From positions 1 through 64,000 of IMG/VR virus record IMGVR_UViG_3300042569_001723: a DNA stretch of 64,000 nt; one strand, 5' to 3'. This document shows positions 3,709-60,986 of the stretch, piece by piece. Position 1 is the stretch's first letter; each line of letters begins with the position of its first letter. Below the pieces are notes generated by a model. That model did no database searches. It saw nothing but the letters and a program-made list of their open reading frames with translations, and was not told the DNA's origin. Origin of the DNA: a virus. A program made the position numbers and the translations under genes.

Positions 3709-3716
3709 GATAATAG

Positions 3717-5876: not shown

Positions 5877-5903
5877 AATACTTTATTTTAATTGATAACA
5901 ATT

Positions 5904-5918: not shown

Positions 5919-5948
5919 CACATTAGTGGAAAGTGAAACTAATCAAAT

Positions 5949-8900
5949 ATGGGAAATGAATTTAAAGTCAAGAACGGCATTATTGTGTCCGGTTCTGCAG
6001 AAATTGAGAATGATTTAATAGTACATGGTACATTAACTGCAACTCAAATTGATTTAACAGTAGTATCTTCTTCTGTTTTATTTCAAAGCGGTTCAACCAA
6101 ATTTGGTGACTCCTCTGATGATGTTCATAACATGACAGGTTCTGTGTATATCACAGGATCTATTACCTTAAATGGTAGTCCAATCGGTACAGGTAAATTA
6201 GACCAAACCGAATTTTATACATACACAACTTCTTTAGACCAAAAAACAGGGTCATTTGCAACAACTGGTTCAAATACATTTGTTGGGACTGAAATTATTT
6301 CAGGTTCAGTTAATATCGTTGGTGGTGATTTAATCATTAACGGAACATCTTATAACTCTCAAACATCAGGTACTTCAGGAACTAGCGGAACTGCCGGTTC
6401 TAGTGGAACCTCAGGTTCAAGTGGTAGTGCAGGTACTTCAGGTACTTCAGGTACATCTGGTTCTAGTGGTAGTGCAGGTACTTCAGGTACATCTGGTTCT
6501 AGTGGTAGTGCAGGTACATCTGGTTCTAGTGGTACTAGAGGAACGTCCGGTTCATCAGGTAGTTCAGGAACTAGTGGTACATCTGGATCATCAGGAAGTT
6601 CAGGTTCTGCAGGTACAAGTGGTACGTCTGGTTCTTCTGGAAGTAGTGGAACAGCTGGTTCTTCAGGAACGTCAGGTTTATTAACATTAACTGGTACAAC
6701 AGATAATGGTATAATAACATTAAATGGTTCCGCACCAAATGCAACAGTCGAATCTAATTTAAGATTTGATGGATCAACTTTAAGTGTGACAGGTAGTGGT
6801 ACTGTTTCAGGTAACTTAACAGTTCAAGGTAACTTAACCGCACAACAATTTATTGTTAGTTCATCGGTTACACATCTTACAACATCTTTTTCAAGTGGAT
6901 CTACAAAATTTGGTGACACTATAGACGACAACCATAATTTTACAGGTTCAGTTTTTATTACAGGGGCATTACAAATACCAAAATCGGCATCTAATCCAAC
7001 AGGTACGGTTTCAGGTCAATTATATTATAATACCACAGATACAAACATATATCGTTACGATGGTTCGTTTTGGTTAAAAGCGGCAGGTACTTCAGGTACT
7101 AGTGGAACTTCAGGTTCTTCAGGTAGTGCAGGAACATCGGGAACGTCAGGTTCTAGCGGTTCTGCGGGAACTAGTGGTACGTCAGGAAGTAGTGGTAGTA
7201 CAGGTACTTCGGGAACTAGTGGTAGTTCAGGTTCAGCGGGAACAAGCGGAACGGCAGGTTCTTCAGGTAGTGCAGGAACGAGCGGTACGTCAGGTTCTTC
7301 AGGTTCAGCGGGTACATCTGGAACATCAGGTTCTAGTGGAAGTGCTGGTACATCTGGAAGTAGTGGTAGTGCGGGAACAAGTGGTTCTAGTGGTTCTGCG
7401 GGTTCATCAGGTAGTGCAGGTACTAGTGGTTCATCTGGTAGTTCAGGGTCTGCAGGTACTTCCGGTACAAGTGGAACGAGTGGAAGTACAGGTACGTCAG
7501 GAACAAGCGGTTCATCTGGTAGTTCAGGAACTAGTGGTTCATCTGGAACATCTATAACAACATCAGGAACAAACAATACTGTTGTTAAATTTACATCTAC
7601 ATCGACAGTTGGTAACTCCAACATTAAAGATGATGGTACAACAATACAATTAGGTTCAAATACACAAATAACGGGGTCATTAGTTGTTAGTGGTAACCTA
7701 ACGGCTCAACAATTTATTGTTAGCTCATCGGTTACACATCTTACGACCTCTTTCTCATCGGGATCAACAAAATTCGGTGATGATATTTTTGATAACCACA
7801 ACTTCACAGGTTCAGTAATAGTTACCGGTTCATTACAAATACCATTAACGACTTCACCATTACTTGCCGCAACTGGTGCAATTTATTACAATACAACAGA
7901 TACAAACATATATCGATATGATGGTACAAACTGGTTAAAGGCTGCCGGTACTTCAGGTACTAGTGGTACATCAGGTTCTTCAGGTAGTGCCGGAACATCT
8001 GGTTCTAGTGGTTCAACAGGAACTAGTGGTAGCTCGGGTTCTAGTGGTACAAGAGGAACATCTGGTTCTAGTGGTTCTGCTGGAACAAGTGGTACATCGG
8101 GTTCTAGTGGAAGTGCGGGAACATCAGGAACAAGTGGTGGTACCGGTTCATCAGGTTCTAGTGGGTCGTCAGGTTCTAGCGGTACTTCAGGAACCACAGG
8201 TACATCAGGTTCATCAGGTACTGCTGGCACATCAGGAACTTCAGGTTCTAGCGGTTCTACAGGTACTTCAGGTTCTTCTGGAACAAGTGGTACGTCAGGT
8301 TCTAGCGGTAGTGCAGGAACATCCGGAACTTCCGGTTCCTCAGGGTCTACTGGAACAAGTGGAACATCTGGTTCTAGTGGAGCAACAGGTTCGTCAGGAA
8401 GTTCAGGTTCTAGTGGTACAAGAGGAACATCGGGTTCTAGCGGTAGTGCAGGAACGAGCGGTACGTCAGGAACATCAGGTTCTTCAGGAACATCAGGTTC
8501 TTCAGGAACATCAATTACAACAAGTGGTACAAATAATACTATAGTTAAATTCACATCAACTTCAACAGTTGGTAACTCTAACTTAACGGACGATGGAACA
8601 ACCTTTAGAGTTGGTCAAAACGCAATAGTAACAGGTTCTTTAACCGTTACGGGTAATTTAATTGCACAGCAATATATTGTAAGTTCTTCAGTTAGTTATA
8701 TAACAACATCATTCGCATCAGGATCAACAAAATTCGGTGATAGTTCTGATGATGTCCATAATTTTACAGGTTCATTAAATATTGGTGGTGGAGGTAAATT
8801 AACCGTAGCTACGGTTGGTGGTGATGAGGGAGGTGAAATTTTATTGGGTAAAGCGGCAACCAATACAACACTTGCAGGTGATGGTGTAACAATCGATGTT

Positions 8901-11900
8901 TGGCAAAATAGATTAAGAATTTTTGAACAAGGTGGAAATGCGAGAGGTGGATATTTTGATATATCAACATTGGCAAATGGTGTTGGAACTAATCTTATAA
9001 CTGCTGGTTCTAGTGGTACTTCAGGAACTGCTGGAACTAGTGGAACATCAGGTATTAATGGGTCATCAGGAACATCGGGTTCTAGTGGTACTTCAGGAAC
9101 AAGTGGTACGTCTGGAACTTCAGGTTCTGCGGGTACATCTGGTTCTAGTGGTTCAACAGGAACAAGTGGAACATCTGGTTCTAGTGGTACAAGAGGAACA
9201 TCGGGTTCTAGTGGAAGTAGTGGAAGTGCTGGTACATCGGGTTCTAGTGGAAGTAGTGGAAGTGCTGGTACTTCAGGTTCTAGTGGTACTTCAGGAACTA
9301 GTGGAAGTGCTGGTACATCGGGTTCTAGTGGAAGTAGTGGAAGTGCTGGTACTTCAGGTTCTAGTGGTACATCCGGAACATCAGGTTCCAGTGGAGCAAC
9401 AGGTTCGTCAGGAAGTTCAGGTTCTAGTGGTACAAGAGGAACTTCAGGTTCTAGCGGTAGTACAGGAACAAGTGGAACATCAGGAAGCTCAGGTGCAACT
9501 GGTTCCTCAGGAACAAGTGGTACATCAGGTTCTAGTGGAGCAACTGGTTCTTCAGGAAGTAGCGGTAGTGCAGGAACCAGTGGAACATCAGGAAGTAGTG
9601 GTACTTCAATCACAACTTCGGGTACTAATAATACATTAACTAAATTTACATCAACAACAACAGTTGGAAACGCAACCAACTTAACAGATGACGGAACAAC
9701 GTTTAGAATTGGTGAAAATACAATCGTAACAGGGTCATTAGTAGTGACAGGAAACTTAACTGCTCAACAATTTATTGTTAGTAGTAGTGTAACACACTTA
9801 ACTACGTCATTCGCCTCAGGTTCATCTAAGTTTGGTGATACTATTGATGATACACATCAATTTACGGGAAGTGTTAGAATCACCGGCTCATTACAAATAC
9901 CTAGTGCATCGGCTAACCCAACAGGAACGGCAACAGGTTCAATATATTACAATACAACAGATTCTAACATTTATAGATATGATGGTTCATTCTGGTTAAA
10001 ATCTGCTGGTTCTTCTGGAACAAGTGGAACATCTGGTTCTGCGGGTACATCTGGAACGGCAGGTTCAAGTGGAAGTGCCGGAACATCTGGAACATCAGGT
10101 TCAAGTGGAAGTGCCGGAACTTCAGGAACAAGTGGTACTTCAGGTTCAAGTGGAGCAACAGGTTCGTCAGGAACCTCAGGTTCTAGTGGAGCAACTGGTT
10201 CATCAGGAAGTTCAGGTTCATCTGGTACAAGAGGTACGAGTGGTTCAAGCGGTTCTGCGGGAACAAGTGGAACATCAGGTTCTTCAGGGACATCTGGAAC
10301 ATCAGGTTCTAGTGGAGCGACTGGTTCATCTGGTTCTAGTGGTACTGCGGGTACTTCAGGTTCAAGTGGAGCTACAGGTTCGTCAGGAACCTCAGGAACA
10401 TCAGGTTCTAGTGGAGCAACTGGTTCTTCAGGAAGTAGTGGTACTGCGGGGTCTTCAGGTTCTAGTGGTGCTACAGGTTCGTCTGGAACATCAGGTTCTT
10501 CTGGTACAAGAGGTACATCAGGTTCTAGTGGTACTGCAGGTACTTCAGGATCATCAGGGTCTTCAGGTTCTTCTGGAACTAGTGGAACATCTATAACAAC
10601 GTCAGGAGCAAACAACACATTAGTTAAATTTACATCAACCTCTACGGTCGGTAATTCAAATTTAACAGACGATGGAACAACAATTAGATTGGCATCTAAT
10701 TCAATTGTTACGGGGTCACTGGTTGTTACGGGTAATTTAACTGCTCAACAACTTATTATATCATCTTCAGTAATGCATTTGACTCAGTCATTTGCATCAG
10801 GAAGTCATAAGTTTGGTGATACCGCAGATGATAATCATGATTTTACAGGATCAGTTAGAATAAACGGGTCAATTGTTTCAACAACAACCGCATTAGTGTC
10901 TGGCTCATCTCAAATTGATTTAACTGCAACCACAAACTATTCAACAGGAATAAAAACAAGATTAAATGCTGAGGGTGTAATATCTGGTTCATCACAAGTA
11001 ACGGGAATAGGTAATTCACAATTAACAAACTCATCTTTTAATATTGGTACAACATCCATATCATTAGGTCGGGCAAGTGCGTCTCAAACATTAACAGGAG
11101 TTAGTATTGATGGTAATTCAGCAACTGTAACAAACGGAGTTTACACTACTGGTGATCAAACAATTGCTGGTATTAAAACATTTAGTAATAGAGTTGTTTT
11201 TAACTCTGCAGTTGCAAATAGACCACAATTCCCTGGTGGTATTTTAGGATTAGATACTGGTGATGGTAATTTTGATATATGGGGTATCTCTCGTGATTAT
11301 TATCCATCTCACGGAACTGGAGCAAATGCTTGGGGTTTAAGATGGAATGGTGATAATAATGATTTTGAATTTGTTGGTGGTGGTACTAATCGTGTTATTT
11401 TAGACATGGATGGTGGTAACATTACCAGTACAGGAACAATATCGGCATCAAACTTTAGTGGAACATCTTCAGGAACAAACACTGGCGATCAAACAAATAT
11501 TACGGGTAATGCCGCAACGGCAACTACTGCAGGGGCGTTAAGTTCAATGAACATATCTCAGTTTACAAATAACAGTGGTTATATTACTGGTATCTCATTT
11601 GCAAACGTTTCATCAAAACCAACAACAATCAGTGGTTATGGTATAACTGATGCAATTACAACAGGTAATATCGGTTCACAAACGGTAGCTTCAGCCGGTA
11701 ACTCAACAACGGTTGGAAATCTAACACCTATTCAGTTCTTTAACAATATGGGTGATAGCCATGGAACAAGAACTAGTTTTGACGCTAGTACCCCATCATA
11801 TAATTTTGGTTTTAGATATGTGCAAGGATCAACCAACGGACCTGGAACAGGTGGTGGTCAATTTTATTCTTGGTACATAGGTTTGGGTAATGATTATCCA

Positions 11901-12641
11901 GCAACCGGCGGTGGTTCATATGGTGCCATGTTTGCTGTCGACAGAAATGTAACAACACCTTATCTTTCAGTAAGATATAATGAAAGTAATAGTTTTGGTT
12001 CTTGGAGAAAAATACACGCAGGATATGCTGATACATCAGGTACCGCTGGTTCATTAAGTAGTATGAACATATCTCAATTCACTAATAATAGTGGATACAT
12101 TACTGGTATCTCATTTGCGAACGTATCATCAAAACCAACTACACTTGGTGGATATGGTATAACAGATGCTTGGCAAGCTGCAGGAAGTTGGGGTGCTGAT
12201 TTAACATCTAATGGATTTACAAGACAAATTGGTGTCGTATATACGGGGGGCGAATTTGCTATATTAACAAATAACTCACAAATATCAACACTTATTGATG
12301 GTTCATATTTTGCAGGTGAAAGTGGTGGATTTTATTCGTTAAATAATTCAAACGCATATTCAAGTAGAGTTGGTTTTTCTAGAGATGGTAGTGGTAATGC
12401 GGCATTTAATGCAAGTGTTGTACCTACAGCTAATAATACATACAACTTAGGTTCAGCATCACTTGGATGGGCGAACGTTTATACGAATGACTTACATTTA
12501 AGTAATATGAATAAACCTGAAGGAAATGATATCGATGGAACAAATGGTACGTGGACTATTCAGGAAGGTGCAGAAAATCTGTATATTATAAATAATAACA
12601 ACGGAAAGAAATTTAAAATATCATTAGAGGAAATTATATAG
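5949..12641 (+). CDS. Giant tail fibre A with five Ser/Thr-rich Gly-X-Y tracts
   Basis: 2230 residues. Residues 1-140 are an attachment head and beta modules. Five tracts made almost only of [12 protein letters not shown] and GAT triplets lie at about residues 141-243, 380-535, 667-855, 1020-1220 and 1354-1548. They are collagen-like in period but contain no Pro. Between tracts lie modules of about 130 residues ([15 protein letters not shown], then [13 protein letters not shown], then [15 protein letters not shown]). The module before tract 4 carries an extra piece ([17 protein letters not shown]). The C-terminal 680 residues hold a different set of beta modules and end in a 65-residue block ([21 protein letters not shown], then TIQEG, then KKFKISLEE) that also ends giant fibre B. 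It probably forms a very long trimeric fibre. Its Ser/Thr content makes it a candidate for O-glycosylation by enzymes encoded downstream. Confidence 0.9.
6369..10592 (+). repeat. Five Gly-Ser/Thr triplet-repeat tracts in giant fibre A
   Basis: Nine-base-scale coding repeats at 6369-6677, 7086-7553, 7947-8513, 9006-9608 and 10008-10592. Each codes Gly followed by two residues from Ser, Thr and Ala, with rare GTR or GIN triplets. Codons are mixed (GGT/GGA/GGC, TCA/AGT/TCT, ACA/ACT/ACG), which keeps the DNA less identical than the protein. The period also opens long false frames on the other strand. Confidence 0.95.
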
Positions 12642-18474: not shown

Positions 18475-18659
18475 CAGAAGAACAACAAATTTTAGAAACA
18501 AGAAAAGTTAAGGCATTAGAAAAAATTGCCAACTCATTAGATGCCCTGACCATTTGGTTTGAAGAAATCGATAAACAAGAATGGAGCGATAGAATACAAT
18601 ACTATCTATCGGAATGGCACAATACAACAAAACCAAAAGATCCAACAATAAATGGATAA
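18471..18659 (+). CDS. Small helical hypothetical protein
   Basis: 62 residues, almost entirely helical (RKVKALEKIANSLDALTIWF, then EWSDRIQYYLSEWHN). Amphipathic with no Cys. It overlaps the GT92-like gene by ATGA and runs 8 bases into the next gene. Similar short coiled-coil proteins occur in environmental phages without known function. A scaffold or adaptor role between the flanking glycosyltransferases is possible but not shown. Confidence 0.55.
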   Translation: MTEEQQILETRKVKALEKIANSLDALTIWFEEIDKQEWSDRIQYYLSEWHNTTKPKDPTING

Positions 18660-45948: not shown

Positions 45949-45971
45949 ATTATCCTTATATTAAGGATAAT
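45949..45971 (+). promoter_or_regulatory. Hairpin covering the start codon of the 45970 gene
   Basis: ATTATCCTTA (45949-45958) and TAAGGATAAT (45962-45971) make a perfect 10-bp stem with a 3-base loop. The right arm contains AAGGA, the only Shine-Dalgarno-like site, and the first two bases of the ATG. In RNA this would hide the start, so it may be a translational switch. It could also act as a weak terminator for the operon that ends at 45937. Confidence 0.5.
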
Positions 45972-48690
45972 GAAAATACTTGCACACGCACCATTCATTG
46001 GTACCACAGGATATGCTAATCACGCTAGGTCCTTTTTTTGTGCCCTAAACAAATACCATACTGTAAAGGTTAGGAACGCAACAATCGGGAAAGGTTGGAA
46101 AGGTATGAATAATACCCCACATAATGACGAACCATACATAACCGACGAAATGAAGGATATGTTAATCCAACAGACCTTGATTAATAGTGACGGTAGTCAC
46201 GGAGATTCACCGATATATGGTTATAAGGGTGATTTTACGCCGGACATTAATATCGTGTTAATGGATATGAATCATTACTATTTCTATGACAATTATAGTG
46301 GTTATAATATTGCATACAATGTTTGGGAATCGACACGTTATCCAGATGACTTCTTTAATAGATTATTTTACTTTGATGAAGTGTGGGTCCCAACACAATG
46401 GCAGTTTGATTGTTTAGTTGAACAAGGTTATCCAAAAGAAAAGATATATGTAGTTCCTGAAGGTGTTGATGTTGAAACATTTAAACCATTAGAAAAATAT
46501 CCTAAAAAAGATAAGACACAGTTTGTTTTGTTTGGTAGATGGGAGTGGAGAAAAGGGACTACAGAAATATTACGAGCATTTGGTGAAGAGTTTAAAGACG
46601 AAACAGATGTTGAGTTAATTGCATCAGTAGAAAACCCATATTCATCAGATGGTTTGAGTACAACAGAAGAAAGAATCAAACATTATGGTATTAACACAAA
46701 GAATATTAAAATAGTTAATTTCCCATCAAGAGAAGAATATGTTAAGTATTTGCAAACGGCAGATGTATTTGTTTCTTGTGCTAGAAGTGAAGGTTGGAAT
46801 TTACCATTGATTGAAGCTATGGCATGTGGAACGCCATCGATATATGCAGATTGGGGTGGACAACAACAATTCACCCAAGGTAAAGGTGTACCTGTATCAA
46901 TTAAAGGGTTAGTTCCTGCAAATTACGAACATAAAGATTTCCCTGGAGAATATTGTGAACCGGACTGGGAAGATTTAAAATTTAAAATGCGTCAAGCTTA
47001 CGATTATAAAACAGCGATGTGGATTACGTCACGTGAAGACGCAAAAAGAATACATAAAGATTTTAATTGGGATACTATTGCAAAAAATGCGTCTATGTTA
47101 TTAGAAGAAAAAATGAAACCATTTGTATTTGTAACAACGGGTAATATCGGTTATATGCCTGTTATCGAGAAACTAGTACAATCAGTATTAGAATTCTCAA
47201 ATTCTAAAATAATTGTTTATGGTGTTGATTGTGACGTTCCATTTGATTACCCGAACGTAATTAAAAGAAGAATTGACCCACCAAAACATTCTGAACATGA
47301 TAGATGGTATTGGAAACAATATGCGTGTATTGAGGCGTTTAATGAAGACTATGATAAGTTTGTTTGGATTGATGGTGATGTGGTGATTAATCACAATTTC
47401 GATACGATTGAAAAATACTTTAAGGATATTGATAACTATCCATTATCTGACATTCATAGACAAGAAGAATTTTATGGTTACTATACATTAGATGGTCAAA
47501 CAAAGAACCAATCATTTAATGAAGAGTTAGCTAAAGAGTGGGGTATTCAAAAAAGAACACCATACATGCATGTTTGTATGTTCATTTATAATAGAAATTG
47601 TGTTGGGTGGTTTGAACAAGTAATTGAATCATATAAGACAACAGATTTAAAAGATTACGATAGGTTGTTCATATGGAATGATGAGGGTATTGAAAACGCA
47701 TTAAGATGGAAACATGGTTACACTAAACATTTACCATTATCTAATTTTGATACATCATCTTATGATGGTGATGCTGGTCAAACACAAAAACAATTAGAAG
47801 ACTTCTACACTTTTTGGAATAAGAAAGGACCATATAACTTCGATAAAGTTTTTGGTTATCAATACATACCAAAGAACAAAGAAGATATTCTTTATTTCCA
47901 CGGGAATAAGAATTCCGAGAACTCAGATAAAATGGTTCAGTTTATCAAATTTATAAAGGACAATTCATTTTATAACTCAGAATATTTTTATACAGGAATA
48001 TACAATGTTGAAAACTTGGGGGACATAAAGGAGTATGAAGGTGGTACATTAGAGGTGGCGGAAAAATTTGGTTGGTTTAGGGCTATCTATCATGAGATTT
48101 TTAATCTACTTGATTATTATAAAGATAGAGTAAAGAATATTAATGAAGGTGATGTTGTTGTTGATTTAGGTGGTAACATCGGTATATTCAATAGATGGGC
48201 GTATAGTCAAGGTGCATCTAAAGTTATATCTTTTGAACCAGATAAAAGATATTTTAAATTATTATCCTTAAATGCTGACCCTCGTTCTATTTTATTTAAT
48301 GCGGGTGCTGCGGATTCTATTGGAGAATTTAGATTATATGAGAGTTCCCATTTAGGTGGATCCAATTTATTTGGTACACATAATAATACAGTAAACTATC
48401 CAGTAAGAACGTATACGTTAGATTACTTGTTTGAAACTGGATTGGTTGACCATATTGATTTTCTTAAAATTGATATCGAAGGCGCTGAACATCACGCCTT
48501 AAAAGGAATTAGTGACGATAATTTAATGAAGGTTAATAACATCTCAATGGAATATCATCATAGTCATTTTAATTTTGATGATGAATTGAGACAACAATTA
48601 ATTGATAGAATGTTGAAATTAGGATTTAACTCATATCTTATGTTTATGGGTATAAATAATGCGTTACAAATGTTATATTTTACAAGATGA
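45970..48690 (+). CDS. GT4 glycosyltransferase - GT-A - FkbM methyltransferase fusion
   Basis: 906 residues with three parts. Residues 1-380 are a GT-B fold GT4 enzyme: VPEGVD, FGRWEWRKGT and the E-x7-E motif in SEGWNLPLIEAMACG (273-287). Residues about 383-665 are GT-A-like, with FVWIDGDVV (DGD, 478-480) and a final YFHGNK. Residues about 715-906 are an FkbM-type methyltransferase: VVVDLGGNIG (729-738), SFEPDKR, DFLKIDIEGAEHHAL. One chain could thus add two sugars and cap by O-methylation. It starts in a hairpin after a 32-base gap and overlaps the next gene by ATGA. Confidence 0.85.
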   Translation: MKILAHAPFIGTTGYANHARSFFCALNKYHTVKVRNATIGKGWKGMNNTPHNDEPYITDEMKDMLIQQTLINSDGSHGDSPIYGYKGDFTPDINIVLMDMNHYYFYDNYSGYNIAYNVWESTRYPDDFFNRLFYFDEVWVPTQWQFDCLVEQGYPKEKIYVVPEGVDVETFKPLEKYPKKDKTQFVLFGRWEWRKGTTEILRAFGEEFKDETDVELIASVENPYSSDGLSTTEERIKHYGINTKNIKIVNFPSREEYVKYLQTADVFVSCARSEGWNLPLIEAMACGTPSIYADWGGQQQFTQGKGVPVSIKGLVPANYEHKDFPGEYCEPDWEDLKFKMRQAYDYKTAMWITSREDAKRIHKDFNWDTIAKNASMLLEEKMKPFVFVTTGNIGYMPVIEKLVQSVLEFSNSKIIVYGVDCDVPFDYPNVIKRRIDPPKHSEHDRWYWKQYACIEAFNEDYDKFVWIDGDVVINHNFDTIEKYFKDIDNYPLSDIHRQEEFYGYYTLDGQTKNQSFNEELAKEWGIQKRTPYMHVCMFIYNRNCVGWFEQVIESYKTTDLKDYDRLFIWNDEGIENALRWKHGYTKHLPLSNFDTSSYDGDAGQTQKQLEDFYTFWNKKGPYNFDKVFGYQYIPKNKEDILYFHGNKNSENSDKMVQFIKFIKDNSFYNSEYFYTGIYNVENLGDIKEYEGGTLEVAEKFGWFRAIYHEIFNLLDYYKDRVKNINEGDVVVDLGGNIGIFNRWAYSQGASKVISFEPDKRYFKLLSLNADPRSILFNAGAADSIGEFRLYESSHLGGSNLFGTHNNTVNYPVRTYTLDYLFETGLVDHIDFLKIDIEGAEHHALKGISDDNLMKVNNISMEYHHSHFNFDDELRQQLIDRMLKLGFNSYLMFMGINNALQMLYFTR

Positions 48691-49349
48691 GTATATTAAA
48701 CGATTTAGCTAAAAAGTACGGAACTGATAAGTCTTCCGAAATACACAATTATTGTGTTAAGTATGAGAAATATCTACCATTCAATAGGTATGATAATTTA
48801 AACATAATGGAAATTGGTATCTTGGGTGGAGATTCCTTAAGAACTTGGAAAGAATTCTATTATAGGTCAAACATTCTTGGTATTGACATCAACCCAGATT
48901 GTAAACAATATGAAGAAGATAGGATGAAAGTTGAAATTGGTTCTCAATTCGATGCAGAGTTTTTAACAAAAATTAAAACACAATACGGACCATTTGACAT
49001 GATACTAGACGATGGTTCGCACATGAATGAACATGTAATATATTCATTTGAACATTTATGGGATTCAATTAAACCCGGTGGTGTTTATGTTGTAGAAGAT
49101 GTATGTACGTCTTATTTACCATACTATGGTGGCGGAAGATACTTGGAAGGCACTATGATGGAATACTTTAAAGGTATAACAGATGAAGTTAATTTTTTTG
49201 GTGAAACATTGGAGAATTTTCATAATGCAAATGCCAGAAGAGAAGATAAGTTAGTTGAACAATTTGAAGCTAAAGGATACAATTACATTGGTACACAGAT
49301 AGAATCGATAAATTTCCTTAACGGAATTATTATAATAACTAAAAGATAA
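48687..49349 (+). CDS. SAM-dependent O-methyltransferase (macrocin/TylF-like)
   Basis: 220 residues. NIMEIGILGGDSLRTWKEFY is the AdoMet motif I, LGIDINPDC motif II, and FDMILDDGSHMNEHVIYSFE with IKPGGVYVVEDV is the TylF/macrocin-type O-methyltransferase and cephalosporin-hydroxylase-like signature. These enzymes methylate sugar hydroxyls in natural products. TAATG coupling into the next gene places it in the heptosyltransferase operon, so it may methylate the added sugar. Confidence 0.8.
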   Translation: MSILNDLAKKYGTDKSSEIHNYCVKYEKYLPFNRYDNLNIMEIGILGGDSLRTWKEFYYRSNILGIDINPDCKQYEEDRMKVEIGSQFDAEFLTKIKTQYGPFDMILDDGSHMNEHVIYSFEHLWDSIKPGGVYVVEDVCTSYLPYYGGGRYLEGTMMEYFKGITDEVNFFGETLENFHNANARREDKLVEQFEAKGYNYIGTQIESINFLNGIIIITKR

Positions 49350-52090
49350 TGGCACATTTACAACAACAACAATTTTGTTCTAGAGTTAGAGAAAAACATC
49401 CGGAATATTTTAAAAATAAAAAAGTATTAGATATTGGGTCATTAGATTTAAATGGTTCAAATAGATTTCTATTCGAGGATTGTAATTACATTGGTATAGA
49501 TATCGGAGAAGGAAGAAATGTTGATGTCGCTGCTGCGGGTAATCTATACGATGCTCCCGATGAATATTTTGACACAATCATATCTACTGAAGTTTTTGAG
49601 CATGATATGTATTATCCTGATACCATTAAGAATGTTATTAGAATGTTAAAGCCAGGTGGTATGTTCATATTCACATGTGCAGCTAATGGTAGACCAGAAC
49701 ATGGTACAAGAAGAACAAGTCAATGTGATGCACCATTATTAGAAGATGTTAGTGAAGAATGGGCTGACTATTATAAAAATTTAGAAAAAGAAGATATAGA
49801 AATTATACCTTCATTTAATGAGGCGTTTATTGATGGTCATTTTGAAAGAGGTTATGAACCAGATGATTTATACTTTTATGGTATCAAAGGTGGTGAGAAA
49901 TATTTGACACAACAAATTGTTCCTGAGCTTAGTAAAGAAACTTATAAGGACGATATTTTTGTAATTGATTGTTGGCCAAATAACGAATCAAAAGAGAATG
50001 ATTTAATTGAGTTAATTAAAATATTAAAGACATATAATATTGATATATTATTAACAGGACATTATCCAATTAAACCTGAGATTCAAAAGATGGTGGACTA
50101 CTATTTATTTGACAAAAAGAACCCACTTTTATTAAGTCATGAATTCAACGAATATCAAGTTGCCAGCGGAAGATGGAGTGATATGGGTGACCATAGAATT
50201 GATAATGCAAATGCGTTCCATCATGATTATGCTATATGGGAGACCCTGAGGAACTCATTTAATTTCTGTAACTACTTGGGTAAGAAAAATATTCACTTCT
50301 TTGAATATGATAACTTACCAAATCCAGTTCAATATAGACAAGCATTTTTAGAAAGATTGGGCGGACATGATGCTGTGTTATATGAATATTCCGAAAACAG
50401 TATAACCAACTCAAATTTTAGTGAATATTGCGCAACGTTTATTTTCTCAGTTAAAACTGATGTGGCAATTAAAGCAATTGACCAAATCAAAACCAAAGAA
50501 GAATACTTTAAAAACAAACCAAACGGTTGGCAATTAGAAAGAGTATTTTTAACAGCACTAAGAAATGTCACTAACAATATCTTTGTAACCAATTACATTG
50601 CAAACAATGATGAGTTGAATACACAAGCTGTTTGGAATAGAGATGGAATGATTAAAAACGGTGCTTATTTCCAAACATACATTGGTGTGGATGAGAAACA
50701 CAACCTTCACTTACATTTGATTTCTGGATTCTCAGAAATTAAGGCAGACAAAGATTATCTACTTGAGGTGGTTTACAATGACTATAAACGATTTATCACA
50801 TTACATAAAGAGGCGTTTTTTACAATACCATTAGGTCAATATAAAAAGGGTAGTAATGTTATTGTATATTATCAAGGGGTCGAAGTATATAAAGAGTTCT
50901 TAGGTGAAAGTGCTGAAGATTGTAGAGAGATAAATAAGTACACAACAAAAAATATAGAAATAAAACAGAATCATAAACCAAAGTCAGTAAATGTTCATTT
51001 TGTTGATGGACCATATATTGAAATATTAGATGATGAACAATTATTATATAGTGTTCAGTTCATTAATAACAAAACAAAGAAGACCGAATTTTCCATTGAA
51101 TTGAAAAGTAATCACTGGTCAAGAAGCTCAATAAAGTATTATGTTGATTGGACAATTGTGATAAAGGGAATTGATAATGATTATTATTATGAACATAGGA
51201 TTGATTTAAAAGGTAAAAGAGTTTATGTTGCTTTCGAATCTAAATCATTGGGTGACACGATTGCATTTGTCCCGTATGTTGAGAATTTCAGAAAGAAACA
51301 TGGTTGTAAAATGATATGCTCAACATTCCAAAATGACTTATTTAAAAAACAATATAAAGAGATTGAATTTGTTGAACCTGGAACCAATGTAAATAATTTA
51401 TATTCCTTATATCGTTTAGGTATGTTTTACAAAACCGAAAATGATGGAACAAGACATATTAATATCGAACATCACTCGTCAGACCCTAAATTGGAACCAT
51501 TAACAAAAATCGCTTCGGATATTTTAGGTTTAGATTATGAAGAGGTAAGAACAAAATTACCAAAATTAGGTAAGAAAAAACAAAAGAGAGTTTGTATCGG
51601 TATTCACTCGACCGCACAATTAAAATATTGGAACAACCCAAATGGTTGGCAAGATGTGGTTGATTATCTAAAAGAAAATGGTTACGAGGTAAGATTGTTA
51701 TCTAGAGAAGAAGATGGATATATGGGTAATAAAAACCCAATAGGGGTGGTGCAACAACCATCGGGGTTATTAACGGATGTTATAAAAACATTACAAGAGT
51801 CAGAACTTTTTATTGGAATTAGTAGTGGATTAAGTTGGTTGGCGTGGGGTGCGGATGTGCCGGTGGTTTTAATATCAGGATTCACAGACATATATACGGA
51901 ACCATTCATCGGAGTTAATAGAGTAATTAATAAAAATGTTTGTAACAGTTGTTGGAATCGACATGATTTTGATGCTGGAGATTGGAATTGGTGTCCCGAC
52001 CAAAAAGGTACAGATAGACAATTCGAATGTTCAAAAGAAATTAGTTCCGAAAGTGTAATTAACGAAATTAAAAAATTACTTAAATTGTAA
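49349..52090 (+). CDS. Methyltransferase fused to TibC-type heptosyltransferase
   Basis: 913 residues. Residues 1-180 are a class I methyltransferase (KVLDIGSLDLNGSNRF, DTIISTEVFEHD, MLKPGGMFIFTCAA). Residues about 200-420 resemble a GT-A-like or alpha/beta domain of unknown role. Residues about 540-913 match the autotransporter strand-loop-strand O-heptosyltransferase group (TibC, Aah, BAHT): VHFVDGPYIEI, FESKSLGDTIAFVPYVENF, GIHSTAQLKYW, FIGISSGLSWLAW and the terminal four-Cys iron-finger region, C865 and C868 (CNSCWNRH), C882 (WCPDQKGT) and C894 (QFEC). TibC-type enzymes move heptose from ADP-heptose to Ser of repeats. It ends the plus-strand block; its stop abuts that of the minus-strand gene. 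Confidence 0.8.
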   Translation: MAHLQQQQFCSRVREKHPEYFKNKKVLDIGSLDLNGSNRFLFEDCNYIGIDIGEGRNVDVAAAGNLYDAPDEYFDTIISTEVFEHDMYYPDTIKNVIRMLKPGGMFIFTCAANGRPEHGTRRTSQCDAPLLEDVSEEWADYYKNLEKEDIEIIPSFNEAFIDGHFERGYEPDDLYFYGIKGGEKYLTQQIVPELSKETYKDDIFVIDCWPNNESKENDLIELIKILKTYNIDILLTGHYPIKPEIQKMVDYYLFDKKNPLLLSHEFNEYQVASGRWSDMGDHRIDNANAFHHDYAIWETLRNSFNFCNYLGKKNIHFFEYDNLPNPVQYRQAFLERLGGHDAVLYEYSENSITNSNFSEYCATFIFSVKTDVAIKAIDQIKTKEEYFKNKPNGWQLERVFLTALRNVTNNIFVTNYIANNDELNTQAVWNRDGMIKNGAYFQTYIGVDEKHNLHLHLISGFSEIKADKDYLLEVVYNDYKRFITLHKEAFFTIPLGQYKKGSNVIVYYQGVEVYKEFLGESAEDCREINKYTTKNIEIKQNHKPKSVNVHFVDGPYIEILDDEQLLYSVQFINNKTKKTEFSIELKSNHWSRSSIKYYVDWTIVIKGIDNDYYYEHRIDLKGKRVYVAFESKSLGDTIAFVPYVENFRKKHGCKMICSTFQNDLFKKQYKEIEFVEPGTNVNNLYSLYRLGMFYKTENDGTRHINIEHHSSDPKLEPLTKIASDILGLDYEEVRTKLPKLGKKKQKRVCIGIHSTAQLKYWNNPNGWQDVVDYLKENGYEVRLLSREEDGYMGNKNPIGVVQQPSGLLTDVIKTLQESELFIGISSGLSWLAWGADVPVVLISGFTDIYTEPFIGVNRVINKNVCNSCWNRHDFDAGDWNWCPDQKGTDRQFECSKEISSESVINEIKKLLKL

Positions 52091-53155
52091 TTAAAGATTT
52101 ATACGTGATTTTAATATATTAAAATTTTGAGTTATTTCTGTTGAATTTAATGCCCTATCATAAAAACGAAACATGTTTATTCCTCCAATCATTTTGGTAC
52201 CGGGTGTCCCGTAACCGGAATACCTTGATCCCAATGCTGGTTGATATGACGATGTCGTTGCTGCCGTTGGATTTATCCAATTCCCACCTACATTCGCAAT
52301 AGATTGACTTCCGGCAAGAACTCCATTTTTATAAACTAAAAAATTATTATCAAAATTAACGGTGAAGACTAAATGATACCACGTGTTTATTACTACGGTC
52401 CCGCTTCCCGCTATATTGCTCTCAAATTGTGTTATTGGACCCTTAACAAAACCACCTAACGCTCCATTACCATCCGTTCTAACATAAAATCTTGCACCTT
52501 CATTACTAAATATTGTATCAGGACCACCAGTACCTAAACTTCCAAAAAAAACTAAAAACTCACAAGTTAAATTTCTAATGTTATTAAATGTGGCATTTGA
52601 TGAAAAACCACCATAATTGCTACTACCACTTCCAACCATATTAATAAATGGAATAGTCAATGGACTACCATTAACTGAACCACTCACAACCGAAAGTCCA
52701 CCATTTAAAAATAAATTTGAAAAACCATGTAAATCATTTACTGTGGTGCCACTTACAAAACTATTGCTGTCACTAACATCTAATGCAATTAATAATCCTT
52801 TAGTTATCAATCCGTTTTTACCATATGGTAAATCTGAAATGATAAAATCTGATGTTTTAACATACAATGATGTTTGTGCATTTGCCCATGCCAATACTTC
52901 ACTTATTGTTGAACCAGTTGCACCAAATGATTTAAGAAAAAATATACATTGAGTATCGTTATTTGCAACATGTATTGAAGGTCCACCTGTTACCCTATTA
53001 ACGTATATTGTATATCCACCATTTGGTGGAGTTATTCCTTGGTAAAATTCTGACGATGATGTTGGTCCATAATCAATCTCACCACTAACACCAAAAGATT
53101 GTGCACCCTTTCTTATTGAATATGGTGATGTACCACTTTTAATATGATTTAACAT
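52091..53155 (-). CDS. LamG-domain fibre or tip protein (only minus-strand gene)
   Basis: 354 residues. The N-terminal 110 residues (MLNHIKSGTSPYSIRKGAQS, then GGYTIYVNRVTGGPSI, then LAWANAQ) form an attachment-type domain seen in environmental phage fibres. A LamG_3 lectin domain follows from about residue 118: KGLLIALDVSDSNSFVSGTT, FINMVGSG, LTCEFLVFFGS, WYHLVFTVNFDNNFLVYKNG, then GGINMFRFYDRALNSTEITQNF. It probably binds a surface glycan. Transcription must start in the 73-base gap shared with giant fibre B. It is convergent with the heptosyltransferase gene, with the two stop codons adjacent. Confidence 0.75.
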   Translation of the reverse strand: MLNHIKSGTSPYSIRKGAQSFGVSGEIDYGPTSSSEFYQGITPPNGGYTIYVNRVTGGPSIHVANNDTQCIFFLKSFGATGSTISEVLAWANAQTSLYVKTSDFIISDLPYGKNGLITKGLLIALDVSDSNSFVSGTTVNDLHGFSNLFLNGGLSVVSGSVNGSPLTIPFINMVGSGSSNYGGFSSNATFNNIRNLTCEFLVFFGSLGTGGPDTIFSNEGARFYVRTDGNGALGGFVKGPITQFESNIAGSGTVVINTWYHLVFTVNFDNNFLVYKNGVLAGSQSIANVGGNWINPTAATTSSYQPALGSRYSGYGTPGTKMIGGINMFRFYDRALNSTEITQNFNILKSRINL

Positions 53156-53228: not shown

Positions 53229-56200
53229 ATGAATATATTTGACGCACACATATCCGGTTCACTTTCAGTCTCAAGTTCGGCTGAAATTTCTGGTGATTTA
53301 ACGGTCTTAGGTAATATTATTGGTAATATTAGTGGTAACACAACTAACGCAGTTTCTGCCGAAACCGCTTCATTTGCACCAATGTATACTTTAACAAGTT
53401 CATTCGGTGCATTTACCTCTTCTTACACTACGGGTTCTTTCACAGGATCTTTTATTGGGAACGGTAACGGATTATTTAATATTCCGGCATCAGGAGTAAC
53501 AGGACTTCAATTAAATCAAATTACAGACGGAAGTGCAACCGCTTCTATTTCACAAGCAAATGGTCTTAGAATTAATTCCAATTCAGAAGTAACAGGAACA
53601 TTAAAAGTAACCGAATCTTCTAAATTTGGTAATTCATTAGATGATGCACATATATTCACAGGTTCTGTTAATGTAACAGGGTCTATTGAATTAAAAGGTG
53701 GTGACTTTATATTGAATGGTACATCTTATAATTCACAAACTTCGGGTACTTCAGGAACAAGTGGAACATCAGGTAGTTCTGGTTCTGCTGGAACTAGTGG
53801 AAGTTCGGGTACATCAGGAAGTTCTGGTTCTGCTGGAACATCAGGTAGCTCAGGTAGTGCGGGTACATCCGGTACTAGCGGAACATCTGGGTCAAGTGGT
53901 AGCACAGGTACTTCAGGAACCGCAGGAACATCTGGTAGTAGTGGAAGTGCAGGAACTAGCGGTACATCTGGTAGTTCAGGAACCGCCGGCTCATCAGGAA
54001 GTAGTGGAACAGCAGGTTCATCGGGTACATCTGGTTTAGTGACATTAACAGGTTCAACAACCGATGGTGTTATTACATATAATGGTAGTGGAACAAATGC
54101 AACGGTTGAATCTAATTTAAGATTTGACGGTTCTAATTTAAGTGTAACGGGTAGTGGGGTAGTTTCTGGTAATTTAACAGTTCAAGGAAACTTAACCGCT
54201 CAACAATTTATTGTTTCATCTTCTGTCACACATCTTACAACATCGTTTTCATCAGGTTCAACAAAATTTGGTGATACGTTAGATGATTTACATCAATTCA
54301 CTGGTTCAATAAGAGTTACTGGATCAATGGTTGTACCAGTTTCAAATACAAATCCTGTTTTAAATGCAACAGGTTCAATATATTATAATACAACTGATAC
54401 CAACATATATAGATATGACGGTAACACTTGGTTAAAAGCTGCAGGTACATCAGGTACTAGTGGTTCATCAGGAAGTAGTGGTAGTGCAGGTACGTCAGGT
54501 TCTAGCGGTTCTGCGGGAACTAGTGGTTCGGCAGGTACAAGTGGAACCTCTGGTTCTAGTGGTAGTACTGGTACAAGTGGCACTTCAGGTAGTTCAGGAA
54601 CTGCCGGTTCTAGTGGAAGTGCGGGAACTTCAGGTTCTGCTGGCACATCAGGATCTTCAGGAACTAGTGGTACATCTGGATCATCAGGAACTTCAGGTAG
54701 TTCAGGTTCAGCGGGAACATCGGGTTCTAGCGGTAGTGCAGGTACTTCAGGTACAAGTGGTTCATCGGGTTCTAGTGGAAGTAGTGGTTCGGCTGGAACT
54801 TCAGGTTCATCAGGTAGTTCAGGAACTGCTGGTTCTAGTGGAAGTGCGGGAACTTCAGGAACAAGTGGAAGTTCAGGATCTGCGGGAACTAGTGGTACTT
54901 CAGGCAGTTCAGGTTCGACAGGCACAAGTGGTACTGCGGGATCATCGGGTTCTGCGGGTACGTCAGGTACATCAGGTTCTAGTGGTTCGGCTGGTTCATC
55001 AGGAACAAGTGGAACATCAGGTAGTTCTGGTACCTCAATCACAACATCGGGAACTAATAATACTGTAGTTAAATTTACTTCAACATCAACGGTAGGTAAT
55101 TCAAATATAACTGACGATGGTACAACAATTAGATTAGGTTCTAACTCTGTAGTAACGGGGTCATTAGTGATTACAGGAAACTTAACTGCACAACAATTCA
55201 TTGTTAGTAGTTCGGTTAGTTATATAACAACATCATTCGCTTCAGGTTCGACAAAATTTGGAGACACGATTGATGACAATCATAACTTTACTGGTTCTGT
55301 TAACATAACAGGTTCTTTAAAAATACCTACAGCATCTGCAAACCCTACGGGAACAGTTGCGGGTCAATTATATTATAACACAACCGATACCAACATATAT
55401 AGATATGATGGTTCATTCTGGTTAAAGGCGGCAGGTACATCTGGAACTTCAGGAACTGCGGGTACGTCAGGTAGTTCAGGTTCATCGGGAACTAGTGGAA
55501 GCTCGGGTAGTGCTGGTACATCTGGCACATCAGGTAGCTCAGGTTCAACAGGCACTAGTGGTAGTGCTGGTACATCAGGTTCAAGTGGTACTAGAGGTAC
55601 CTCAGGTTCTAGTGGTTCATCAGGTTCCGCTGGCACATCAGGTTCTAGCGGTAGTGCGGGTACTAGTGGTACTTCAGGTAGTTCAGGATTGGCAGGTTCA
55701 TCAGGTACTAGTGGTAGTTCAGGTTCTGCTGGAACTTCAGGAACCGCAGGTTCATCAGGTAGTGCCGGAACTTCAGGGTCATCAGGGTCTGCAGGTACTA
55801 GTGGAACATCAGGAAGTAGTGGTAGTGCAGGAACAAGTGGAACTGCCGGTACATCAGGTTCTTCGGGAACAAGCGGTTCTTCAGGAAGTTCAGGTTCTAG
55901 TGGTACAAGAGGAACATCGGGTTCTAGCGGTAGTGCAGGTACTTCAGGTACTAGTGGAAGTTCGGGAACATCAGGTAGCTCAGGTACATCAATCACAACT
56001 TCAGGCACCAATAATACAGTCGTTAAATTCACATCAACCTCTACGGTTGGTAATTCAAATATAACAGATGACGGTACAACAGTTAGATTAGGGTCTAATA
56101 CAATTGTAACCGGTTCATTGGTGGTTACGGGTAATCTAACTGCTCAACAATTTATTGTGAGCTCTTCGGTTACACATCTTACAACGTCATTCTCGTCAGG

Positions 56201-59200
56201 TTCAACTAAATTCGGAGATACGTTAGATGATAACCATAATTTTACAGGTTCTGTAAGTGTAACAGGGTCATTACAAATACCTAGAGCATCCTCAAATCCA
56301 GTAGGGACTGCAACAGGTTCAATATATTATAATACCACAGACACAAATATCTATCGATATGATGGTTCATTTTGGTTAAGAGCTGCAGGTTCTTCGGGAA
56401 CAAGTGGAACTTCAGGAACTGCTGGTACATCAGGTTCTAGCGGTAGTGCTGGTACATCGGGAACCTCAGGTTCAAGCGGTACGTCAGGTACATCTGGAAC
56501 TTCAGGTTCTGCCGGTACATCAGGTTCCAGTGGTGCTACGGGTTCTTCAGGTACTAGTGGAACATCAGGTAGTTCAGGTTCTAGTGGTAGTGCGGGAACA
56601 AGTGGTAGCTCAGGTTCTAGTGGTAGTGCTGGCACATCAGGTTCTAGTGGAACTAGAGGTACATCAGGTACATCTGGCTCAAGTGGAAGTGCCGGTACAT
56701 CAGGTACTAGTGGTGCTACAGGTTCTAGTGGTACTTCAGGTTCTAGCGGTAGTGCGGGAACAAGTGGAAGTGCTGGAACATCAGGTTCTAGTGGTGGTAC
56801 GGGTTCTAGTGGTACATCAGGTTCTTCTGGTACAACTGGTACTTCAGGTTCTAGCGGTAGTGCGGGAACAAGTGGAAGTGCTGGAACATCAGGTTCTAGT
56901 GGTGCTACGGGTTCTTCAGGAAGTAGTGGTAGCTCAGGTTCTAGTGGTACTAGAGGAACTTCAGGAACAAGTGGAAGTTCAGGCTCTAGCGGTAGTGCAG
57001 GTACATCAGGTTCTAGCGGAAGTAGCGGATCAACTGGAACTTCAGGAACAAGTGGAACATCAGGTACTAGCGGTTCTTCAGGTACCTCAATTACAACTTC
57101 AGGAACAAATAATACATTAACTAAATTTACATCAGCAACAACTGTTGGAAATGCCACAAACTTAACGGATGATGGAACAACATTTAGAGTTGGTCAAAAT
57201 GCAGTTGTAACAGGAAGTTTAGTAGTAACAGGTAACTTAACCGCTCAACAACTTATCATATCATCTTCAGTAATGCATTTGACACAATCATTTGCGTCTG
57301 GTTCACATGTATTCGGTAATTCAATAGATGATACACACCAATTTACTGGTTCGTTAAGGGTTACAGGTTCAATGGTTGTCCCAACTGCAACATCAACAGG
57401 TACTGCATTAGGTACAATAGCGGGACAAATATTTTATAATACAACAGATAATAATATCTACAGATATAACGGTACAACTTGGTTGGTGGCTGCGGGTTCT
57501 TCAGGAACTAGTGGAACGTCAGGTTCAAGTGGTACCGCAGGGACAAGTGGTAGTAGTGGTTCATCGGGTGTAAGTGGTGCTTCAGGAACTAGTGGAACGT
57601 CAGGTTCTAGTGGAAGTAGTGGAGTTGCGGGTTCTAGTGGTACTTCAGGAACATCAGGTTCTAGTGGAAGTGCAGGTACATCAGGTATGTCAGGATCAAG
57701 TGGTGCTAATGGTAGTAGTGGTTCATCAGGTTCCGCTGGCACATCAGGAACTAGCGGTAGTGCTGGAACAAGTGGAACATCAGGTTCTAGTGGTTCGTCA
57801 GGTTCTTCTGGTGTTGCAGGTTCTAGTGGTTCATCAGGTTCTAGTGGTACAAGAGGAACATCAGGTTCTAGCGGAAGTGCCGGTACTTCAGGTTCTTCAG
57901 GATCAAGTGGTGCCAATGGTAGTAGTGGTACATCGGGTTCTTCTGGTACAAGAGGAACATCAGGTTCTAGTGGTAGTGCGGGTACTTCAGGTTCTAGTGG
58001 TGCAAATGGTTCTTCAGGAAGTAGTGGTAGTGCAGGTACATCAGGAACCGCAGGTTCATCAGGTTCTAGTGGTGGTACGGGTTCTAGTGGTACATCAGGT
58101 TCTTCTGGTACAAGTGGAACATCAGGTTCTAGTGGTAGTGCGGGTACTTCAGGAAGTAGTGGTAGTGCAGGTACGTCAGGTTCTAGTGGTACAACTGGTA
58201 CGTCAGGTTCTAGTGGTACAACTGGTACTTCAGGTTCTAGTGGAACTGCTGGTACATCAGGTTCTAGTGGTACTAGTGGTTCATCAGGAACATCGGGTTC
58301 TAGTGGAACATCAGGTTCTAGTGGTGGTACGGGTTCTAGTGGTACATCAGGTTCTTCTGGTACAAGAGGAACATCAGGTACATCAGGTTCTAGCGGAAGT
58401 GCCGGTACATCAGGTTCTTCAGGGACTAGTGGAACGTCAGGTACATCAGTTTCAGTTTCGGGTAATTCTGGCACAATAGTTAAATTTACTTCAGCATCTA
58501 CAGTTGGTAATTCAAATATAGTTGATACTGGTAATGATATTACATTTAATACATCTTTAACAACAGTAAAAGGTAATTTGGTTGTAACGGGTAGTTTAAC
58601 TGCTCAACAATTTATTGTCAGCTCATCAGTTAGTTTTATTACAACATCATTCGCTTCAGGGTCAACAAAATTCGGTGACGACACTGGAGATAATCATAAT
58701 TTTACAGGTAGTGTTTTTGTTACGGGATCTTTAAGAATACCTACAGCAAGTGGTACAGGTAATATAATAGGTAACGCTGCTGGTCAGTTATTCTATAACA
58801 CAACCGATAATAACATTTATAGATATAACGGAACAACTTGGTTAGCTGCGGCCGGTACTTCAGGTACAAGTGGAAGTTCAGGTAGTTCTGGTGCCGGTGG
58901 TAGTTCAGGTTCTAGTGGAAGTGCGGGTACAAGTGGTAGTTCAGGTTCTAGCGGTTCAAGTGGGTCATCAGGAACAGCAGGTTCTAGTGGTACATCTGGA
59001 ACAACAGGAACTAGTGGCACATCAGGTTCTAGCGGTACAACAGGAACTTCAGGTAGCTCTGGAACGTCAGGAGCAGCAGGTTCTAGTGGTTCTAGTGGAT
59101 CATCAGGAACTAGAGGTACATCAGGTTCTAGCGGTAGTGCTGGAACAAGTGGAACATCGGGAACTGCAGGTAGTTCAGGATCTTCAGGTAGTTCAGGAAC

Positions 59201-60986
59201 CTCAGGAAATTCAGGTTCTTCAGGTAGTTCGGGTTCTTCGGGATCAAGTGGTTCAGCGGGTACATCAGGTGCTGCGATAATTAACAATAATACCGCTAAC
59301 TACGTTTTAACCGCAACAGGTACCGCAGGAACAATTCAAGGTAATGCTGGTTTAACATTTAGTTCAGGTACTTTAACAGCAACAACATTTAGTGGAGCGT
59401 TAAGTGGTAATGCATCAACAGCAACACAAGTTACACAAACATTAACAGGAACAAACGCCGCGAATTTACTATACTCACAAATTGCAGATAATGACTACGC
59501 AAGAATTCGTGTTGGTGGTGATGCGGGAAATAGTGGTTGGATGGAATTGGCAACTGCTGATGATGGTAATGAACCAATTTATGTTCGTCAATATACGGGT
59601 GTATTTACAACAGTTACAAGAACTGCAACATTATTAGATGGTAGTGGTAACACAACATTCCCTGGAACATTATCAGCGTCAAACTATAGTGGTACATCAT
59701 CAGGAACAAATACAGGAGACCAAACAAATATTTCAGGATACGCAACTTCATTAAACGGATATGCTAACCAAACTGTATACACAATTTTAGATGGACCAGC
59801 AAATGGTCCGGTTATTAAAGTTAGATATGATAGTGCAACAGCAAATAGATATATTGATATTGGGAGTAAAGATGGTAATGGTGTTTATAGTGAAGGTTTA
59901 AAATTATATAATAATTCCACCATAACTTGGTTAGGTCAAACCGTTTATCACTCTGGTAACATACCAACTTGGAATCAGAACACAACAGGTACCGCTAGTA
60001 ATATTACCGCATATACAATCAACCAAAGTGTTGGCACGGGTAACTCACCAACGTTTGTTGATACTACATTAACAGGTGGTTTAACTATTGGTGGGTCATT
60101 ATCAAGAGGTACATATGTAAGTTTATCAAACTATGTAACAGGTGCGGATAACATTGTATTAAAAGGTAATTCATCCGGTGTTAGTGGTATATTCTTTGAA
60201 TCAGAAAAAGATGGTACAAACATTAATCATCCTTCCGATTTTGGATTTATACAATTTCATTCTTACGGTATTGGTGGTTCATCAGGTGAAGCAAACAGAT
60301 TAGTTATTGGTACGTCTAACGATGCTGATGATATTCTTGTGTTGAATCCTGCGGATATTAACGGACTTAAACTAAGAGCTGGAGTTGGTACAACAGAATA
60401 TACAATATATCACGCGGGTAACATACCAACATGGAATCAAAACACAACTGGTACTGCTAGTAACATTACTGCCTATACAATTAATCAAAGTGTTGGTACA
60501 AGTAATTCACCAACATTCGCAGGTATAACAGTTAACGGTACGGTGGTTGCCAGTCAAAGTGGTTTCCAAAGTGCAACATATGCTTCAGGTCGAAATCGTA
60601 TTTGGAGTTTTGGTAATGCGGATGCTTATGGTATTTCCTATTTTCAAGGATCGGGTGGTTATGGTGGTTCTCAGGATATGATTGGATTTCATTTTGGTAC
60701 CGCTAGCGTTGCTGAGTCTAAATTTACATTCGTTGCCGATGGTAGATTTTTCATAACTGGAGGGATATTCCCATCTGCAAATGGTACATATAATTTAGGT
60801 TCATCATCATTAAGATGGAACACAGTCTTTACTTCCGATTTATCTTTAAGTAATGGTATTGGTGACTATACAATTGTTGAGGGTGAGAATGATTTATTCT
60901 TATATAATAATAAACAAAATAAGGTTTATAAATTTATGTTGCAAGAGGTTAACCCTAATGACGCAACACCAAAACGACCTGAATAA
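53229..60986 (+). CDS. Giant tail fibre B with six Ser/Thr-rich Gly-X-Y tracts
   Basis: 2585 residues, paralogue of fibre A. The N-terminus carries the module [20 protein letters not shown] shared with the 1309 and 3717 fibres. Six Gly-Ser/Thr/Ala tracts lie at about residues 173-268, 406-603, 736-921, 1054-1287, 1423-1740 and 1876-2014, split by modules with [14 protein letters not shown] and [14 protein letters not shown] or [11 protein letters not shown]. Triplets GAN and GVA appear in tract 5 only. The C-terminal 570 residues hold a repeated phrase ([20 protein letters not shown], twice) and a 65-residue end block ([34 protein letters not shown]) like that of fibre A. It forms a very long fibre, probably trimeric. 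Confidence 0.9.
53745..59270 (+). repeat. Six Gly-Ser/Thr triplet-repeat tracts in giant fibre B
   Basis: Coding repeats at 53745-54033, 54444-55037, 55434-55991, 56388-57089, 57495-58449 and 58854-59270. They use the same triplets as fibre A ([18 protein letters not shown]). Tract 5 is the longest, about 318 residues. DNA phrases such as GGTTCTAGTGG recur many times in both genes. Confidence 0.95.

Follow-up and report, generated by a model that had tools for sequence, protein, structure and literature searches.

A Phage Branch of the TibC-Type Glycosyltransferase Family Linked to Collagen-Like Gly-Ser/Thr Tracts in Giant Fibers

Introduction

TibC is a member of the bacterial autotransporter heptosyltransferase (BAHT) family in which Asp110 is named as the base and four cysteines are iron ligands, every one of them required (PMC4358343). 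Its Arg286, which is conserved in the family, touches N1 of adenine and is held to account for the preference of the enzyme for ADP (PMC4358343). In mycobacteriophages, phage-encoded glycosyltransferases have been proposed to modify the virions (PMC4351075). Here, we describe a gene for a 913-amino-acid (aa) protein with a C-terminal TibC-type domain at 49349..52090 (plus strand) of a 64,000-nucleotide stretch of viral DNA, referred to below as the window (positions 1 to 64,000 of IMG/VR record IMGVR_UViG_3300042569_001723). The viral record that contains the window is 77,787 bp long; a second record, of 97,638 bp, is identical across the 21 kb compared and by its positions extends to about 133 kb in window coordinates. 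A water-borne phage group carries its own branch of this adhesin-serine glycosyltransferase family, and the phage enzymes probably glycosylate Ser and Thr residues in Gly-Ser/Thr tracts of the adjacent fibers, a stiff and hydrated shaft being the likely purpose.

Results

The open reading frame, profile matches, and predicted structure define a trifunctional protein composed of a methyltransferase, a GT-A-fold domain, and a BAHT domain. The BAHT domain (aa 542 to 910; 50972..52078, plus strand) matched TIGR04414 (hepto_Aah_TibC) with 281.6 bits (E = 8.9e-84), against a curated cutoff of 200 bits, and matched the sequence of solved TibC (4rap/4rb4) with an E value of about 1e-50. An AlphaFold model had a mean predicted local distance difference test (pLDDT) value of 85.7. 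When this model was compared with TibC chains, the template modeling (TM) scores by target length were 0.82 to 0.86, with E values down to 6e-33 and a score of 0.86 for 4rap. These scores indicate the TibC fold, which has a beta-barrel in addition to a GT-B core. The next fold was that of WaaC, at a TM score of about 0.55, and PF01075 (GT9) matched the domain weakly. A plain lipopolysaccharide (LPS) heptosyltransferase of the GT9 family was ruled out, since TIGR04414 and TibC score far higher by both sequence and fold. These data, which lie far above chance, establish the C-terminal domain as a TibC-type BAHT and bear out the autotransporter heptosyltransferase signature that the initial annotation had reported in this part of the protein.

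The four-Cys iron-finger region reported in the same annotation was also present. Cys865, Cys868, Cys882, and Cys894 (51941..52030, plus strand) align with TibC Cys339, Cys342, Cys358, and Cys370. The alignment places Asp636 at the position of TibC Asp110, Thr755 at Thr226, Lys759 at Lys230, and Trp830 at Trp305, and the catalytic Asp and the four Cys are invariant across all aligned sequences. TibC Pro300, which sets stereoselectivity, is replaced by Ser in the window protein and likewise in AAH.

A fully supported branch in a tree of 52 BAHT domains separates the phage sequences from the cellular BAHTs that were sampled. Two sequences from contigs of metagenome-assembled genomes nest within the phage side; both are probably phage sequences, since they lie beside phage-type genes or tracts. 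Relatives are encoded in at least 222 stretches of the viral collection, and among annotated phage records they were found in only four. The two sides of the tree differ at the position of TibC Arg286, which is occupied by V, I, L, A, or T in 31 of 32 phage sequences (Val811 in the window protein) and by Arg in 17 of 18 cellular sequences. The sole sampled phage sequence that keeps this arginine is the most basal phage BAHT (L166). This sequence comes from LR756501, a 735-kb phage with more than 1,300 strict tract matches over its record. Donor recognition has probably changed in the phage branch, as judged from the loss of Arg286 across it. Because the residue is replaced in phages and kept in cellular BAHTs, the window protein is best described as a member of a divergent BAHT branch with a putative donor and not as a demonstrated heptosyltransferase.

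The proposed acceptor is giant fiber 2 (53229..60986, plus strand; 2,585 aa). It consists of an N-terminal anchor, six tracts interspersed with similar modules of about 132 to 135 aa, and a 569-aa C-terminal part. The tracts, all on the plus strand, are located at 53745..54035, 54444..55031, 55434..55985, 56388..57083, 57495..58442, and 58854..59270. A second proposed acceptor, giant fiber 1 (5949..12641, plus strand; 2,230 aa), contains five tracts (6369-6677, 7086-7547, 7947-8507, 9006-9602, and 10008-10586, plus strand). Counting by the tract pattern thus reproduced exactly the eleven Gly-Ser/Thr tracts in two giant fibers that had been described earlier. Together, the tracts hold 663 Gly-X-Y triplets with almost no Pro. 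The X position is filled by Ser or Thr in 633 of them; Ser occupies the Y position in 504 triplets and Ala in 104. By their glycine periodicity, the tracts are classed as Pro-free collagen-like triplets. The Pfam Collagen model (PF01391) matched fibers 1 and 2 with 358 and 485 bits, respectively. These matches, and those to SclB/Lcl, were not accepted as kinship because they reflect only the Gly-X-Y periodicity.

Across the phage group, BAHT genes and tracts are repeatedly found as close neighbors. In 18 loci, a fiber of the M[KN]IF type starts 48 to 70 nucleotides past the BAHT stop codon, and this fiber is nearly always tract bearing. Of 45 nonredundant loci, 19 have a tract that starts on the same strand no more than 1 kb downstream of BAHT; the expected number is 2.9, and a count of 19 was never reached in 100,000 simulated draws. 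Eight further loci have tracts 5 to 8 kb upstream of the BAHT gene on the same strand. In the window, a convergent gene for a LamG/ConA-like lectin protein (52091..53155, minus strand; PF13385, E = 4.5e-12) lies between the BAHT gene and fiber 2.

For a measure of co-occurrence blind to both BAHT and tracts, records were drawn twice by thymidylate synthase (sample 1, n = 38; sample 2, n = 29). Sample 2 replaced sampling by the terminase and DNA polymerase of Microcystis phage Mel-JY01, which had yielded mostly short contigs. Mel-JY01 (PP395634) is a cultured phage whose genome carries both BAHT and tracts. In sample 1, BAHT was found in 8 records, tracts were found in the same 8 and in one more, and 29 records had neither (P, about 2e-7). 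The one additional record (G059) is not a true case of tracts without BAHT. The positions of a shared family 4 glycosyltransferase (GT4) place its start at roughly window coordinate 58,075, within fiber 2, which makes it a truncated copy of the window phage. In sample 2, 7 records had both, 3 had only BAHT, 1 had only tracts, and 18 had neither (P = 0.0005). When near-identical phages were merged, the corresponding counts were 4, 2, 1, and 13 (P = 0.014). Taken together, the two samples gave 12 cases with both features, 2 and 1 with one of them alone, and about 37 with neither. With a looser tract pattern that admits Asn triplets, one of three BAHT-only records became positive and nothing was found in 21 negative records. 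Mapped onto the thymidylate synthase tree, the combined presence of BAHT and tracts is not clustered; it changes roughly 8 times, and 4 or more of these changes fall on well-supported branches.

These counts bear on the view that the enzymes modify LPS or a protein on the host surface, perhaps to keep out superinfecting phages, and that the BAHT gene adjoins the fiber because host interaction genes tend to cluster in phages. Phage glycosyltransferases in such a role are well known (GtrB-like enzymes), another window gene gives a weak GtrB-like match, and the window has a large sugar island at about 16 to 49 kb. Moreover, annotation of a huge phage takes a heptosyltransferase as an LPS modification enzyme (PMC10747093). 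However, BAHTs modify Ser in proteins rather than LPS, and the match here is to TibC and not to WaaC. Under a host surface role, no particular association with tracts would be expected, but BAHT follows the tracts, whereas GT4 enzymes, present in 31 of 38 sample 1 records, do not (P = 0.16). We therefore regard a host surface target as unlikely and favor glycosylation of the fiber tracts.

The BAHT gene is part of a cassette. In the product of its first gene (45970..48690, plus strand; 906 aa), profile matches identify a GT4 glycosyltransferase and, at the C terminus, an FkbM methyltransferase, with another region in the middle. The next open reading frame (48687..49349, plus strand) encodes a methyltransferase (Methyltransf_24 by profile) and overlaps both of its neighbors. 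In the sister phage G039, the flanking genes are in the same order with 65 to 94% identity, and the gene immediately after SGNH encodes a fiber whose N-terminal anchor is the same (60% identity, 164 aa). The GT4-FkbM, methyltransferase, and BAHT genes are missing from this phage, as is every tract. Since the fiber anchor and modules are kept without BAHT, it is the tracts that accompany the enzyme.

The same locus can be read in another way, with BAHT acting on other virion proteins (fiber modules, LamG proteins, or the capsid) and the tracts simply traveling along as fiber and cassette recombine in a block. Cassette and fiber are indeed replaced as a block in G039, and in locus L018, BAHT lies beside a related fiber that has no tracts. 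The modification enzymes of mycobacteriophages likewise lie among virion genes, with the capsid as the proposed target (PMC4351075). Against this, G039 keeps the fiber anchor and modules in the absence of BAHT while the tracts go with the enzyme, and the tracts offer hundreds of exposed Ser and Thr residues (the 633 X positions counted above). Such an alternative target is improbable, and the tracts remain the acceptor that we favor.

Several observations weigh against tract glycosylation. In reverse sampling, BAHT was found in 17 of 30 tract-bearing records and not in the other 13, which indicates that tracts can occur without BAHT in the record. G126 has tracts without BAHT, no tract was found in the BAHT-bearing records G107, G124, and LR756504, and L018 pairs BAHT with the tract-less fiber noted above. 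Many records are fragments, and because the genes are adjacent, truncation drops both, which inflates the co-occurrence; among sample 1 records of at least 150 kb, 4 had both and 6 had neither (P = 0.005). TIGR04415, the strand-loop-strand acceptor repeat, had no match in either fiber, which rules the fibers out as canonical TIGR04415 acceptors. A residue required in TibC, Arg286, is replaced in nearly all phage sequences, so the donor or the mode of action may differ. Finally, a complete ADP-heptose pathway was not found among the window phage proteins scanned. The earlier suggestion that the phage O-glycosylates its own fibers is nevertheless well supported by gene adjacency in many phages, co-occurrence in two samples, and G039; the initial interpretation as a whole, heptose included, holds in part.

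The initial annotation had called the enzyme a TibC-type heptosyltransferase and had suggested looking for ADP-heptose synthesis genes in the rest of the genome. In two loci (L058 and L067), the BAHT gene is followed, with overlapping ends, by HldE-like genes for an adenylyltransferase and a kinase. HldE domain models are the best matches of both proteins in these loci, with scores below the cutoffs. These operons (L058, 9944-12217; L067, 1802-4081) may constitute a phage module for ADP-heptose synthesis, and their HldE-like genes favor a heptose donor in these two loci. The HldE-like pair was found in 6 of 34 BAHT-positive records and in 0 of 16 BAHT-negative records, a difference that is not significant (P = 0.16). 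In the window phage, one weak adenylyltransferase was detected (61 bits against a cutoff of 181), and no HldE kinase match was found among the proteins scanned; this phage would depend on its host or use another sugar. Locus L058 also encodes a 2,323-aa structural protein (426-7397) in which a stretch close to the C-terminal third looks intein-like by eye.

It is quite possible, at somewhat less than even chances, that the phage enzyme is not a heptosyltransferase and, while still acting on Ser or Thr, uses another nucleotide or another sugar that the phage's sugar island supplies; this would be compatible with a fiber target. The distribution of Arg286 described above points in this direction, given that the contact of this residue with adenine N1 explains the choice of ADP in TibC (PMC4358343). 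So do a sugar-1-phosphate nucleotidyltransferase-like gene in the window (29908-31812) and RmlC in the overlapping record. In favor of heptose, HldE-like kinase and adenylyltransferase genes adjoin BAHT in some phages that also lack the Arg, and the counterparts of Trp305, Lys230, and Thr226 are retained. Heptose as the sugar thus has the family and the HldE-like neighbors on its side and the loss of the conserved adenine contact against it. The donor is probably a heptose or a related sugar, but with Arg286 lost, its nucleotide and sugar may differ from those used by TibC.

The remainder of the BAHT protein suggests what may follow transfer. An N-terminal S-adenosylmethionine-dependent methyltransferase domain (aa 1 to 180; 49349..49888, plus strand) matched PF13489 (E = 3e-8) and phrog_32762 (E = 5e-49). 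The middle domain (aa 186 to 432; 49904..50644, plus strand) matched no Pfam family and is predicted from its alignment, model, and Foldseek matches to have a GT-A-like nucleotide-sugar transferase fold. Its alignment contains an invariant E-Y-D motif. A model built from 23 relatives had a pLDDT of 87 and a predicted TM score of 0.87, and Foldseek matched it to GlcAT-P, mannosylglycerate synthase, GtrB, and COLGALT1 at TM scores of 0.4 to 0.5. The initial annotation had noted neither this domain nor the loss of Arg286.

Taking the domain fold and its catalytic residues together with the separate clade, the order and co-occurrence of the genes, and the loss of the cassette in G039, we infer an acceptor, a donor, an order of steps, and a benefit as follows. 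During virion production, the BAHT domain would start the glycan by moving a sugar from a nucleotide-activated donor onto Ser or Thr in the tracts, probably mostly at the X position. The GT-A domain and the upstream GT4-FkbM protein would then extend the glycan, and the methyltransferases would cap it. Such glycans would make the collagen-like shaft stiff, hydrated, and resistant to proteases and might also provide a variable coat on the surface. Since Pro-free triplets should form a weak triple helix, sugar on Ser or Thr could stabilize the shaft, and stabilization by sugar has been proposed for other glycosylated collagens. A broader scenario is tentative and somewhat doubtful: the widespread phage TibC branch may have switched both acceptor, to Pro-free collagen-like shafts, and donor, through the loss of Arg286. 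Together with the genes for the GT4-FkbM protein and the methyltransferase, it may make up an exchangeable cassette for fiber glycosylation, gained and lost along with the tracts, and sugar on Ser and Thr would take the place of proline in stabilizing the shaft.

Among the short loci available for BAHT-lacking records, none of the other window sugar genes was found near the tracts. The sugar island of the window contains further genes of note. Two adjacent genes (18652-20076 and 20073-21470) encode a family 7 (beta-1,4-galactosyltransferase-like) glycosyltransferase joined to a LamG-type lectin domain; this glycosyltransferase family is best known from animals. The gene at 29908-31812 encodes a fusion of a mannose-6-phosphate isomerase-type cupin, a sugar-1-phosphate nucleotidyltransferase, and a weakly kinase-like C terminus. 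A NodU/NolO-like carbamoyltransferase (34644-36308; phrog_1601, 415 bits) and three radical-SAM-like genes (22315-23697, 24349-25911, and 43044-44084) are also present in the island, and the last of the three resembles the twitch domain N_Twi_rSAM. A truncated, phage-borne shikimate dehydrogenase-like protein of 207 aa is encoded at 32581-33204.

Discussion

Glycosylation of virions by phages is not new in general, being known from mycobacteriophages, and later work has reportedly described glycosylated mycobacteriophage virions. The window gene belongs to a known family, of which it represents a new branch in phages, and its substrate is apparently new. Phage use of the BAHT family, a link to Gly-Ser/Thr fibers, and an altered donor site were not found in a literature search that covered mostly open-access papers. 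If the proposed activity is correct, it would give a function to Gly-Ser/Thr-triplet phage fibers, which are common and unexplained, and would extend a family of bacterial adhesin enzymes to viruses and to a new substrate. It would also provide a genetic module that predicts glycosylated virions among environmental phages and would bear on phage adsorption, stability, and recognition and on the cohesion of Pro-free collagen-like shafts.

The closest described system is that of TibC and AAH (TIGR04414; 4rap and 4rb4), a family characterized by the transfer of heptose to Ser and by assembly into a dodecameric ring. The window BAHT shares with these enzymes the family, the fold, the residues equivalent to Asp110, Thr226, Lys230, and Trp305, and the four Cys, and in both cases the gene adjoins that for a very long Ser/Thr-rich surface protein. 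Unlike TibC and AAH, it belongs to a separate phage clade, is fused to a methyltransferase and a GT-A domain, and has lost Arg286. Its neighbor is a collagen-like fiber and not a beta-helix autotransporter, and TIGR04415 repeats are absent from it. Mycobacteriophages of cluster O similarly encode glycosyltransferases and an O-methyltransferase among virion genes, and decoration of the virion has been proposed (PMC4351075); in contrast, the enzymes there belong to other families, the capsid is the proposed target, and neither an iron finger nor Gly-Ser/Thr tracts are reported. WaaC and WaaF (GT9) belong to the same superfamily as BAHT but lack the iron finger, act on a lipid acceptor, and score far lower. 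In BclA of Bacillus, O-glycans have been proposed on a shaft of Pro-Thr triplets modified by other enzymes. Gly-X-Y triplets with many hydroxyl residues are common to BclA and the window fibers, whereas the window fibers are nearly free of Pro.

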